Below are positions 16,525 to 33,031 of a stretch of 35,984 bases of DNA, one piece after another. The stretch is taken from NCBI GenBank assembly GCA_020445665.1, contig JAGRGD010000237.1, positions 1 to 35,984 of the forward strand. The letters run 5' to 3'. A model generated the notes under the pieces. The model was not told where the DNA came from. It did no database searches and worked only from the letters and a program-made list of their open reading frames with translations. Numbering within the stretch: the first letter of the stretch is position 1; the number at the start of each line of letters is the position of its first letter. Origin of the DNA: Rhodocyclaceae bacterium. GTDB taxonomy: Bacteria; Pseudomonadota; Gammaproteobacteria; Burkholderiales; Rhodocyclaceae. A program made the translations under genes and the position numbers.

Positions 16525-16538
16525 TCCTGATTGACGTA

Positions 16539-16650
16539 CCGGCCTGGTGCCCACCGCTCGAAGGTGGGTGCAACGGGAAACAGGTGAGAACCCTGTGCTG
16601 CCCCCGCAACGGTAAGCGCCCAGCGCGAGCCCGGAGACCGGCCAGGCCGG
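16539..16650 (+). promoter_or_regulatory. Cobalamin (B12) riboswitch aptamer
   Basis: The sequence follows the cobalamin aptamer consensus. A perfect 9-bp P1 stem joins 16539-16547 (CCGGCCTGG) and 16642-16650. Inside are GGTGCCC, the P2 hairpin, CGGGAAACAGGTG, GAACCCTGTGCTGCCCCCGC as the conserved core (read as the GAA..CC.GTGC and GCTGCCCCCGCAAC segments), and the 3' B12 box GCCCGGAGACCGGCC. It looks like a compact form without the long P7-P9 extension. It lies in front of tonB-exbB-exbD and should lower their expression when B12 is plentiful. The 3' platform (16651-16738) has no evident intrinsic terminator, so translational control is more likely. Confidence 0.93.
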
Positions 16651-16738
16651 CCGAAGACTGCACCGCGGGTGGCGGACGGCAGCGGCTTCGCCCTGTGCCG
16701 GCCCTGCGCTCCCCTCCCCCAAGAGGATTGACGCGCCC

Positions 16739-23544: not shown

Positions 23545-23558
23545 TTGACGTGGATCAA
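23545..23558. promoter_or_regulatory. FNR box between hemN and fnr
   Basis: TTGAC-GTGG-ATCAA differs from the FNR consensus TTGAT-N4-ATCAA at one base. It lies between the divergent hemN and fnr starts. The -10 candidates at the right distance are weak on both strands (GATGGT towards hemN), so activation of hemN, autoregulation of fnr, or both are possible. Confidence 0.75.
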
Positions 23559-23599: not shown

Positions 23600-24343
23600 G
23601 TGGAAATGAAAGCAACGGCGGTCACGCCGACCACTCTTAAGGCCGCCTGCTCTCAGTGTAATCTCCGCGAACTCTGCCTGCCATTCGGATTGACCGGCCA
23701 CGAGATCGACCGGCTCGACGAGTTGGTCGGCACCAAGCGCAAGATCCGCCGGCAGCACCAGCTCTATCGGGCCGGCGATGAGTTCGAGGCCATCTATGCG
23801 ATCCGCGCCGGCTCGTTCAAGACTGACGTGTTGCTTGAGGATGGTCGTGAACAGGTCACCGGCTTCCAGATGACCGGTGAGATCCTCGGCCTCGACGGCA
23901 TCAGCTCCGAGGCCCATTCCTGCAATGCCACCGCCCTCGAAGACAGCGAGGTGTGCATCATCCCCTTCTCGAAGCTCGAAGAGCTGTCCCGTGAGGTCGA
24001 GTCGCTTCAGCACCAGTTCCACAAGGTCATGAGTCGCGAGATCGTGCGTGACCATGGGGTGATGATGTTGCTCGGCTCAATGCGGGCGGAAGAACGCCTC
24101 GCCGCCTTCCTCCTGAATCTGTCGAAACGTTTCATGGCGCGGGGCTACTCTCCAGCGGAGTTCCACCTGCGCATGACCCGCGACGAAATCGGATCCTACC
24201 TGGGCCTCAAGCTCGAAACCGTCTCCCGCGCCTTCTCGAAATTTCAGGACGAGGGTCTGGTCGCGGTCCATCAGAAACACATCCGGATCATCGACCTGGA
24301 AGGTCTCAAGCGCCTGCTTACCCACTGCGCAAAGCACACCTGA
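23600..24343 (+). CDS. fnr: FNR-type oxygen-sensing regulator
   Basis: This global regulator of anaerobic and micro-oxic genes has about 247 residues. All four [4Fe-4S] ligands appear to be present: Cys17, Cys20 and Cys26 (CSQCNLRELC) and Cys119 in EVCIIPF, matching E. coli Cys20/23/29/122. The recognition helix LETVSRAF has the Glu-x-x-Ser-Arg pattern that reads TTGAT half sites. GTG 23600 was chosen because AAAGGAG lies ten bases upstream; ATG 23606 is nearly as good. It probably acts at the FNR-type boxes at ccoN, uspA and hemN in this window. Confidence 0.96.
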   Translation: MEMKATAVTPTTLKAACSQCNLRELCLPFGLTGHEIDRLDELVGTKRKIRRQHQLYRAGDEFEAIYAIRAGSFKTDVLLEDGREQVTGFQMTGEILGLDGISSEAHSCNATALEDSEVCIIPFSKLEELSREVESLQHQFHKVMSREIVRDHGVMMLLGSMRAEERLAAFLLNLSKRFMARGYSPAEFHLRMTRDEIGSYLGLKLETVSRAFSKFQDEGLVAVHQKHIRIIDLEGLKRLLTHCAKHT

Positions 24344-26226: not shown

Positions 26227-26270
26227 TTGACAAGCGTCAAGCCGGGAGGCCGCGCCTCGGAGCCTATAAT
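26227..26270 (+). promoter_or_regulatory. FNR-type box and -10 of uspA
   Basis: TTGAC-AAGC-GTCAA (26227-26240) is a symmetrical FNR/ANR-type site. A perfect TATAAT follows at 26265-26270, giving a spacer of 24 bases. This is two or three longer than in the ccoN promoter, so the site would be centred near -43. It lies 62 bases before the uspA start and is badly placed for phaC on the other strand. Confidence 0.65.
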
Positions 26271-31047: not shown

Positions 31048-32472
31048 TCAGGCGTGCGCGGCGGCCGGTGCGACGACAGGCGCGTCGTAAGCCTTCTGGC
31101 CGGAAATGGTCTTCACCATGTTGTAGAACATGATCAGCATGCCCCCGAGGAACAGCACGCCGCCCAGCAGGCGGATCGACCAGAACGGATAGCTGGCCTT
31201 GACCGACTCGACGAAGGAGTACGTCAGGGTGCCGTCCGGGTTGGTAGCGCGCCACATCAGGCCCTGCATCACGCCGGCAATCCACATCGAGGCGATGTAG
31301 AGCACCACGCCGATGGTCGCGACCCAGAAGTGGGTAGTGATGAGCTTGGTCGAATACATCTCGGTCTTGCCATACATCCGCGGCAGCAGGTAGTAGATCG
31401 AACCGATCGACACCATCGCCACCCAGCCCAATGCACCGGAGTGCACGTGACCGACCGTCCAGTCGGTGTAATGGGACAGCGCATTGACCGTCTTCACCGA
31501 CATCATCGGGCCCTCGAAGGTCGACATGCCGTAAAAGGACAGGGACGTGATCAGGAACTTCAGGATCGGGTCGGTACGCAGTTTGTGCCAGGCGCCCGAC
31601 AGGGTCATGATCCCGTTGATCATGCCGCCCCAGGACGGTGCCAGCAGGATCAGCGAGAACAGCATGCCGACCGACTGGGTCCAGTCAGGCAGGGCGGTGT
31701 AGTGCAGGTGGTGCGGGCCAGCCCACATGTAAGTGAAGATCAGGGCCCAGAAGTGAACCACCGAGAGGCGATAGGAGTAGACCGGGCGGTCCGCCTGCTT
31801 CGGCACGAAGTAGTACATCATCCCGAGGAAGCCGGCGGTCAGGAAGAAGCCCACCGCGTTGTGCCCGTACCACCACTGGATCATCGCATCCTGGACACCG
31901 GCGTAGGCCGAGTACGACTTGGTCAGCGACACCGGAATCGCGGCGCTGTTCACGATGTGCAGCAGAGCGACGGTCAGGATGAACGCGCCGAAGAACCAGT
32001 TGGCGACGTAGATATGCGAGGTCTTCCGCTTGGCCACGGTGCCGAAGAACACCAGCGCGTAACTGACCCAGACGACAGCGATCAGGATGTCGATGGGCCA
32101 CTCGAGCTCGGCGTATTCCTTGCCGGACGTGATCCCGAGGGGCAGCGTGATGGCCGCCAGGACGATGATCAGTTGCCAACCCCAGAAGGTGAACTGCGCG
32201 AGCCCCGGCGCGAACAGCGTGGTGTGGCAGGTTCGCTGGACAACGTAGTAGGACGTTGCGAACAGCGCACAGCCGCCGAAGGCGAAGATCACAGCGTTGG
32301 TGTGTAGCGGGCGCAGTCGGCCGAAGTGGAACCACTCGGCGAAGTTCAGTTCAGGCCATACGAGCTGTGCTGCGACGATAACGCCGACCAGCATGCCCAC
32401 AATGCCCCACACCACCGTCATGATGGCGAACTGGCGCACGACTTTATAGTTGTAAGTCGCTTGCGATTGCAT
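31048..32472 (-). CDS. ccoN: cbb3 oxidase catalytic subunit CcoN
   Basis: This haem-copper oxidase subunit I of C type has 474 residues and about twelve membrane helices. It holds low-spin haem b, haem b3 and CuB. Likely ligands lie in [14 protein letters not shown], in [11 protein letters not shown] (CuB His and the cross-linked Tyr region), in the GPHHLHYT pair and in [14 protein letters not shown] 32472 with GAGGTGAC upstream gives the usual [15 protein letters not shown] start. It is first in ccoNOQP and has an FNR-type promoter about 90-130 bases upstream. Confidence 0.98.
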
Positions 32473-32577: not shown

Positions 32578-32602
32578 CGAAACCTTAGTTGACGCAGATC
32601 AA
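32562..32602 (-). promoter_or_regulatory. FNR-activated promoter of ccoNOQP
   Basis: TTGAC-GCAG-ATCAA (32589-32602; reading TTGAT-N4-GTCAA on the minus strand) is an FNR-type box. A 21-base spacer leads to the -10 TATTCT (32567-32562), giving a start near 32555 with the box centred near -41, as in class II FNR promoters. The leader to ccoN is about 80 bases. Confidence 0.75.
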
Positions 32603-32668: not shown

Positions 32669-32696
32669 AAAAAAAAGGGTGCGTTCTCACGCACCC
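32669..32696 (-). terminator. Strong intrinsic terminator after ccoIS
   Basis: An 8-bp stem GGGTGCGT/ACGCACCC has a GAGA tetraloop on the minus strand and is followed by eight consecutive Ts. It separates ccoI-ccoS from the ccoN promoter. Confidence 0.9.
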
Positions 32697-32773
32697 CCAA
32701 CCCCAACAGAGAGACAAAAATTCCTTCAGTCGCAGCGCCCGGGTGGCGCCGGGCAATGCAGATGACTGGATTG
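32669..32773 (-). ncRNA. Candidate FNR-controlled small RNA
   Basis: An FNR-type box and GATAAT -10 (32780-32820) would start transcription near 32773, and the intrinsic terminator ends it near 32669, giving about 105 nt. The RNA would have a 5' hairpin (GCCCGG/CCGGGC), an unpaired middle rich in U, C and G (UUUUUGUCUCUCUGUUGGGG), and a GAGA-loop terminator with a U8 tail, the usual form of Hfq-dependent small RNAs. No plausible coding frame lies inside. It is proposed by analogy with E. coli FnrS and Neisseria AniS, with no sequence similarity claimed. Alternatively this is simply the 3' trailer of ccoS. Confidence 0.45.
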
Positions 32774-32779
32774 AGTTCA

Positions 32780-32820
32780 ATTATCCCTTTGTCGCCGGGT
32801 TGCTCATTGACCTATGTCAA
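32780..32820 (-). promoter_or_regulatory. Second FNR-type promoter, downstream of ccoS
   Basis: TTGAC-CTAT-GTCAA (32807-32820) is a perfectly symmetrical FNR-type site. A 21-base spacer, identical in length to that of the ccoN promoter, leads to a -10 GATAAT (32785-32780) on the minus strand. Transcription would run into the terminator at 32696-32669 before reaching ccoN. Confidence 0.6.
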
Positions 32821-32830
32821 AAACCCTACA

Positions 32831-33031
32831 TTATGTGGGGCCACCATCGCCTGGCTCACGCTCTGCTTCGCCCGGCCGACCGGGTTTCGGGCGGTCGTCG
32901 TCCATAACGACCCGATAGGCCGGCCCTTCCATGTCATCAAACTGGCCACTTCGCACAGACCACCAGAAGATCACCCCGATCAGGAAGACGAGGACCACCG
33001 ACAACGGGATCAACAGGTAGAGTGACTCCAT
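32831..33031 (-). CDS. ccoS: cbb3 oxidase maturation protein CcoS
   Basis: This 66-residue protein has one N-terminal membrane helix (about 3-25), then the family motif FWWSVRSGQFDDMEGPAYRV, seen here as SGQFDD and EGPAYRVV, and a hydrophilic tail. CcoS is needed for haem and copper insertion into CcoN. It starts four bases after ccoI, so the two are cotranscribed. Confidence 0.95.
   Translation of the reverse strand: MESLYLLIPLSVVLVFLIGVIFWWSVRSGQFDDMEGPAYRVVMDDDRPKPGRPGEAEREPGDGGPT

Follow-up and report, generated by a model that had tools for sequence, protein, structure and literature searches.

Between ccoS and ccoN, the Rhodocyclaceae quite probably carry a stand-alone gene for an FNR-activated, base-pairing small RNA (sRNA). 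This reading was drawn from the promoter and terminator architecture, the conservation, the synteny, the covariation of the terminator, and the complementarity to candidate targets, as they are found in the window, i.e. the whole stretch of 35,984 nucleotides of DNA analysed here, and in its relatives. A preliminary description of the window had proposed a candidate FNR-type sRNA gene at this place, and the architecture conserved in relatives largely supported the proposal, with transcription and FNR dependence as predictions. Read along the minus strand, the locus consists of ccoI, ccoS, an FNR box, 21 nt, GATAAT, about 75 nt, a terminator with U8, a second FNR box, 21 nt, TATTCT, and ccoN (Table 1). 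NCBIfam subfamilies and the position of the gene identify ccoI, which encodes a copper-type P-type ATPase. The symmetrical FNR box and the 21 nt that separate it from GATAAT were described with the right coordinates and distances, and the spacing indeed equals that of the ccoN promoter, whose box is likewise separated by a 21-nt gap from TATTCT (32567-32562). According to the promoter spacing, the sRNA is expected to start at about 32773. The strict FNR pattern TTGAYNNNNRTCAA occurred four times in the window, compared to 0.06 expected occurrences, and none of 100 shuffles reached four.

Table 1. Positions in the window of the predicted sRNA gene, its parts, and its neighbours.
Feature	Position	Strand	Basis
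FNR box of the sRNA promoter, TTGACATAGGTCAA, a perfect palindrome	32807..32820	-	Read from the sequence
-10 element GATAAT, 21 nt past the box	32780..32785	-	Read from the sequence
Predicted sRNA, about 105 nt, expected start to U8 end	32669..32773	-	Sequence and homologues; 5′ end predicted from the promoter spacing
sRNA 5′ hairpin, which varies among relatives	32732..32759	-	Fold; alignment A1
Conserved core GTCTCTCTGTTGGGGTTGG, proposed pairing (seed) region	32697..32715	-	Invariant in 18 sequences of alignment A1
Intrinsic terminator, stem-loop 32698-32675 plus U8	32669..32698	-	Terminator scan; stem covariation
Separate FNR box of ccoN, 3′ of the sRNA terminator	32589..32602	-	Sequence
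ccoS, upstream neighbour	32831..33031	-	NCBIfam TIGR00847
ccoN, downstream neighbour	31048..32472	-	NCBIfam TIGR00780; translated from 32478, start picked by eye

An exact TTGA-N6-TCAA box was found upstream of the core in 140 of 144 distinct loci of relatives. Two of the four boxless loci are cut at a contig end, and in the other two an ompW gene separates box and core. The best -10 element, taken as the best of nine gaps, begins 21 or 22 nt past the box in 135 of the 140 loci. With no free choice of gap, 52 of the 140 loci had a TATAAT-like hexamer at gap 21 and 70 had one at gap 22, compared to 7 loci at most for each of the other gaps from 14 to 30. Conservation of box, spacing, and hairpin in the Rhodocyclales, to which the preliminary description had looked for confirmation, is thus clearly positive, and the loss of box and -10 element in relatives that keep the terminator, which would have spoken against the proposal, did not occur. 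The arrangement found here, an FNR box at activating distance from a sigma-70 -10 element and no conserved gene behind it, is the one expected for the class of FNR-activated, trans-acting sRNAs.

At the other end of the predicted transcript, the GAGA-loop terminator GGGGGTGCGTGAGAACGCACCC leads into eight T (minus strand, 32676-32669), and because it ends in these eight T, the RNA is predicted to be about 105 nt long with a U8 tail, both as described earlier. Terminator scanning alone was at chance level (2 in 3 kb vs. 2.3 expected); the terminator exceeds chance by its conservation, and not by the scan count. Among 28 terminators, picked for diversity from 82 distinct ones, 5 of 8 stem pairs had changes in both partners, and none of 500 shuffles reached the observed covariation score; the number of pair types in the stem was not above that of shuffles (279 of 500). 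Positions 32773-32668 fold at -42.6 kcal/mol compared to -32.8 for shuffles (z -2.9), and in relatives the RNA is predicted to range from about 65 to 208 nt, with a median of 99. The 5′ hairpin proposed before is present in the fold, but in the alignment of relatives it is the least conserved part of the sRNA, and the middle that had been called unpaired is so only in part, with a mean probability of being unpaired of just 0.49 over CUCUCUGUUGG in the predicted folds of 150 relatives. The earlier observation that no coding frame is present held in these relatives as well, where the longest closed ORF inside the RNA had a median of 0 aa and reached 20 aa or more in 6 of 150 RNAs. A start-like ATGGTTTT that some relatives have at their 5′ end was rejected, as it is missing in the genus of the window and few RNAs have a closed ORF.

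What the preliminary description had missed is that conservation is concentrated immediately ahead of the terminator, in a segment resembling an antisense seed for translation starts. Its exact 15-mer CTCTGTTGGGGTTGG was found in 139 of 198 family genomes, representing 49 of 68 genera, with 0 matches for the reversed control. This count should be taken as a lower bound for the occurrence of the sRNA, because loci with a variant core also keep CTCTGTTGGGGTT and the FNR box: both were present in all 11 loci inspected for their weak or variant matches, 10 of which deviate from the 17-letter core by one or two letters, the remaining one being exact. A blastn-type search of 199 family genomes gave a match in 154, and among the matches listed the matched segment was nearly always the last 50 nt, comprising core and terminator, with few lying elsewhere, such as in G087. 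The 13-mer CTCTGTTGGGGTT was present in 41 of 41 loci from this search, which itself favours conserved stretches, and 40 of them had an FNR box within 230 nt, the exception being the ompW locus L010. The invariance of the core is partly a matter of selection, because most loci were fetched by core matching. The surveyed family is, judging from shared contigs, Rhodocyclaceae in the wide sense, and among at least 80 named loci there were sRNA loci in Azoarcus, Aromatoleum, Thauera, Zoogloea, Dechloromonas, Azonexus, Denitromonas, Uliginosibacterium, Sulfuritalea, and Accumulibacter, as well as in many Rhodocyclaceae or betaproteobacterial bins. Of 338 genomes from other families of the order, two had the exact core, compared to one match for the reversed control in all 349; both copies are located at a cco locus, and an FNR box precedes the core there by about 100 nt. 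The viral contigs searched for the sRNA gave no match. A covariance model (R1) run on 369 class genomes returned 13 matches besides its own, which were rejected as false positives and were mostly plain terminators; inspection by eye showed them to lack the core, and an FNR box was absent from the 360 bases scanned.

An OmpW gene (PF03922) lies between the FNR box and the core in L010 and L078 (the same locus as L390 and L404), with the box 750 and 769 nt upstream of the core, respectively. The core begins within about 10 nt after the ompW stop codon in both, as in sRNAs derived from a 3′ UTR. Core and terminator may accordingly descend from the 3′ end of an ompW message under FNR control that later lost its reading frame. 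We regard this origin as conceivable but lean against it, since the arrangement was seen in only 2 of 144 distinct loci and an ompW gene inserted into a pre-existing sRNA gene would be an equally simple explanation. The ompW reading concerns the origin of the gene, and therefore does not exclude that its product is an FNR-activated sRNA.

Several sRNAs with this type of control are known from other bacteria. FnrS differs in sequence from the Rhodocyclaceae RNA, AniS is FNR-controlled and belongs to a betaproteobacterial host, and PhrS and SicX/PaiI of Pseudomonas are controlled by Anr, an FNR-type low-oxygen regulator. To our knowledge, AniS is not located at a cco locus. Rfam 15 at gathering threshold assigned nothing to the element, FnrS included, and a permissive search (up to E 10) returned seven sub-threshold families, with FnrS, PhrS, and SicX/PaiI not among them. 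The best-scoring entry, ftsZ-DE (RF02985), reached 18.2 bits with 72.2 needed, and matched the terminator hairpin only. AniS (RF02274) scored 17.1 bits (E 1.5) against a cut-off of 50, in a match that covers the full length of the model (1-106 of 106). The Rhodocyclaceae RNA could on this basis be a diverged true homologue of neisserial AniS, to which it is similar in size and in the order of its parts (5′ hairpin, pyrimidine-rich stretch, UGUU-GGG, terminator, and U8), but such homology appears unlikely, as the score is far under the cut-off, the unrelated ftsZ-DE scores higher with its hairpin alone, and the two other-family genomes with an exact core, of 338 in the order, both have it at the cco locus. 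In passages of the respective papers, AniS of Neisseria is described as induced in anoxia (PMC4423775) and as having an encoded U8 tail (PMC11912907), and FnrS of enterobacteria as an FNR-activated RNA that lowers oxidative-metabolism mRNAs, with sodB among its targets in E. coli (PMC10993149). The sodB target has a counterpart here in sodC, a candidate target of the Rhodocyclaceae RNA (see below), whereas locus and host clade are different from those of FnrS. Most likely, the RNA would work like FnrS and AniS in the model proposed below, with homology to either as a candidate only, and the predicted RNA is, judged by its sequence, a new family within the known class of FNR-activated sRNAs. 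The earlier statement that none was known at the ccoS-ccoN position agrees with the missing Rfam fit and with the open-licence literature searched, where no FNR-controlled sRNA for Rhodocyclaceae was among the matches listed, a weak absence. PMC6515357 names Azoarcus together with sRNA, in a text whose passages on sRNA concern plants, and in the matching part of PMC3110155 Azoarcus appears only in a table of repeats.

The surroundings of the element are conserved together with it. Of the first 30 loci, all had ccoS and 29 had ccoN (L007 ends before ccoN), and 116 of 130 loci with long enough flanks had ccoS before and ccoN behind the element, the other 14 having one of the two. A second FNR box, that of ccoN itself, follows the terminator in 131 of 135 loci. 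The distance from the terminator to ccoN is 0.7 to 2.3 kb in four loci (L054, L116, L103, and L082). Since the element lies codirectionally between ccoS and ccoN, its terminator could close the ccoS message, and one may suppose that box and terminator serve the cco operons only, the terminator ending the ccoI-ccoS transcript and the box being a spare or double FNR site of ccoN, without any functional sRNA. Other families do have FNR boxes at most 700 nt upstream of ccoN in 25 of 27 loci (16 with ccoS detected) and the core in none of the 27; a terminator-like site was present in one, 534 nt upstream of ccoN. We nevertheless consider a purely cco-related function quite improbable, because the core is kept better than a terminator would require (the 13-mer in every locus of the blastn-type search, with its preference for conserved stretches), the -10 element has retained a constant distance from the first box, and ccoN has a box of its own in nearly all loci. 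With this separate box behind the terminator, there is no need to regard the RNA as a ccoN leader. A leader or attenuator, in which the RNA forms the 5′ portion of an extended ccoN transcript and controls read-through into ccoN, would suit the common strand, the terminator upstream of ccoN, and the one regulator that probably drives both promoters, but it is very unlikely in view of those 131 ccoN boxes, of the four loci with a distant ccoN, and of the pairing energy of the window's core with its own ccoN leader, -17.1 kcal/mol compared to -34.4 with its own cytochrome c leader in the same calculation.

For the proposed FNR-activated sRNA, exact copies of the core point to candidate targets. 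Outside the cco locus, seven extra copies of the 15-mer were found in 6 of 198 family genomes, compared to 0 in 338 other-family genomes (Fisher p 0.0024). Five of these seven copies lie opposite gene leaders, 10-32 nt before the start codon, namely that of sodC (Cu/Zn superoxide dismutase) in a pair of congeneric genomes, that of dsrC/tusE in one member of this pair, and those of a DsrE-like gene and pyruvate kinase once each. The predicted duplexes at these five sites range from -39 to -48 kcal/mol, calculated with a longer core than in the cytochrome c calculation. The remaining two copies (L379 and L380) had no convincing start nearby. The 11-nt complement DCCAACAGAGAG was not enriched genome-wide, with 29 matches in 121 genomes vs. 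39 for the reversed sequence by hand count; at 16 of the 29 sites a frame of at least 70 aa starts 16-28 nt after the first site base (also counted by hand, and an uncontrolled fraction), and one cytochrome c gene recurred in two genera. In the genome of the window, 9 sites deviate from the 12-nt complement by a single mismatch (the sRNA itself being a tenth match), compared to 3 in the control, and the candidates among them are a pyruvate:ferredoxin oxidoreductase subunit, purD, a Tll0287/HAMP protein, and a SurA-like isomerase.

The leaders of the small cytochrome c gene were compared inside and outside the family. Energies at or below -22 kcal/mol were obtained for 10 of 18 leaders inside and 0 of 29 outside, with medians of -22.35 and -15.6, respectively (one-sided Mann-Whitney p 4e-5), where it should be kept in mind that pairing energy favours any purine-rich ribosome-binding site and that the compared leaders are related by descent. 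The inside set consists of the 18 closest of 30 fetched family loci (E <= 4.2e-37), the 12 dropped loci being more distant cytochromes or second copies. The outside set has 29 loci (E <= 2.2e-36), of which L352 and L353 share one leader and L358 probably has a misread start. As background, 3.2% of 1300 predicted starts from the fetched loci were at or below -22, and the leader in the genome of the window was at -29.1 in this comparison. Leader L285 is not independent, because cytochrome c was chosen from pattern matches, and without it 9 of 17 inside leaders reach -22. Eight of the 18 inside leaders miss -22, five of them from genomes with an exact core. Inside genomes lacking the exact core gave -22.9 (G004, L277), -15.0 (G005), -13.3 (G013), and -18.7 (G051).

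Two further genes, sdhC and fnr, were considered on the basis of a single match each and rejected as conserved targets, with mean z values of -0.46 and -0.30, respectively, compared to -1.94 for cytochrome c. The fnr leader of one genus (L193, L194, and L245) carries CCAACAGAGAGAG, which is complementary to the core, and feedback of the core on fnr, limited to this genus, is possible. For cox3 of a cytochrome oxidase, another putative target, the seven leaders read ranged from -29.0 to -17.6; this oxidase subtype was present in 9 of 69 genomes only, three of which (G017, G045, and G065) lack the exact core.

The Rhodocyclaceae, prominent in wastewater plants, live at the border between oxic and anoxic conditions, and model organisms for the anaerobic degradation of aromatics belong to them. 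From the features above, we infer that the RNA is transcribed, that FNR activates it, and that it accumulates at low oxygen, where it would block translation by chaperone-aided pairing. As oxygen falls, FNR would bind its box, whose centre lies some 41 nt ahead of the sRNA start, and activate the RNA (105 nt here), which would stop at its own terminator. The segment CUCUGUUGGGGUU before the terminator could then pair, aided by a chaperone, with the ribosome-binding region of selected mRNAs, and this pairing of the core would block their translation. The best candidate targets are functions useful in oxic life, the small c-type cytochrome and Cu/Zn superoxide dismutase; the sulphur-relay proteins DsrC/TusE and the DsrE-like protein are less obvious ones. 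FNR would at the same time induce the high-affinity cbb3 oxidase from the adjacent promoter while the RNA lowers aerobic functions. Such a physiology, with cbb3 on and the aerobic cytochrome and superoxide dismutase down, would be coherent and fits that of FnrS with sodB. It suggests that the logic of FnrS and AniS emerged once more, from another sequence and next to a terminal oxidase; with a core, a promoter, and a few candidate targets named, oxygen control at the post-transcriptional level can be tested directly in Rhodocyclaceae. The most far-reaching combination, a family-wide oxygen switch in which an sRNA that arose from the 3′ end of an FNR-regulated ompW message settled in the cbb3 locus and, by means of a nearly unchangeable 13-nt seed, links induction of the high-affinity oxidase with silencing of the genes for aerobic cytochrome c, superoxide dismutase, and sulphur relay, is put forward tentatively, as in its entirety it is rather doubtful.

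Elsewhere in the window, a strict FNR box at 23545-23558 (+) lies directly upstream of fnr (match 23612-24325, +), which suggests that fnr is autoregulated. Another strict box at 26227-26240 (+), with TATAAT behind it, precedes a gene starting MFKNILVPTDGSD, and this gene, named by eye, looks like a universal stress protein. A cobalamin riboswitch (RF00174, 88.8 bits) was found at 16528-16660 (+).
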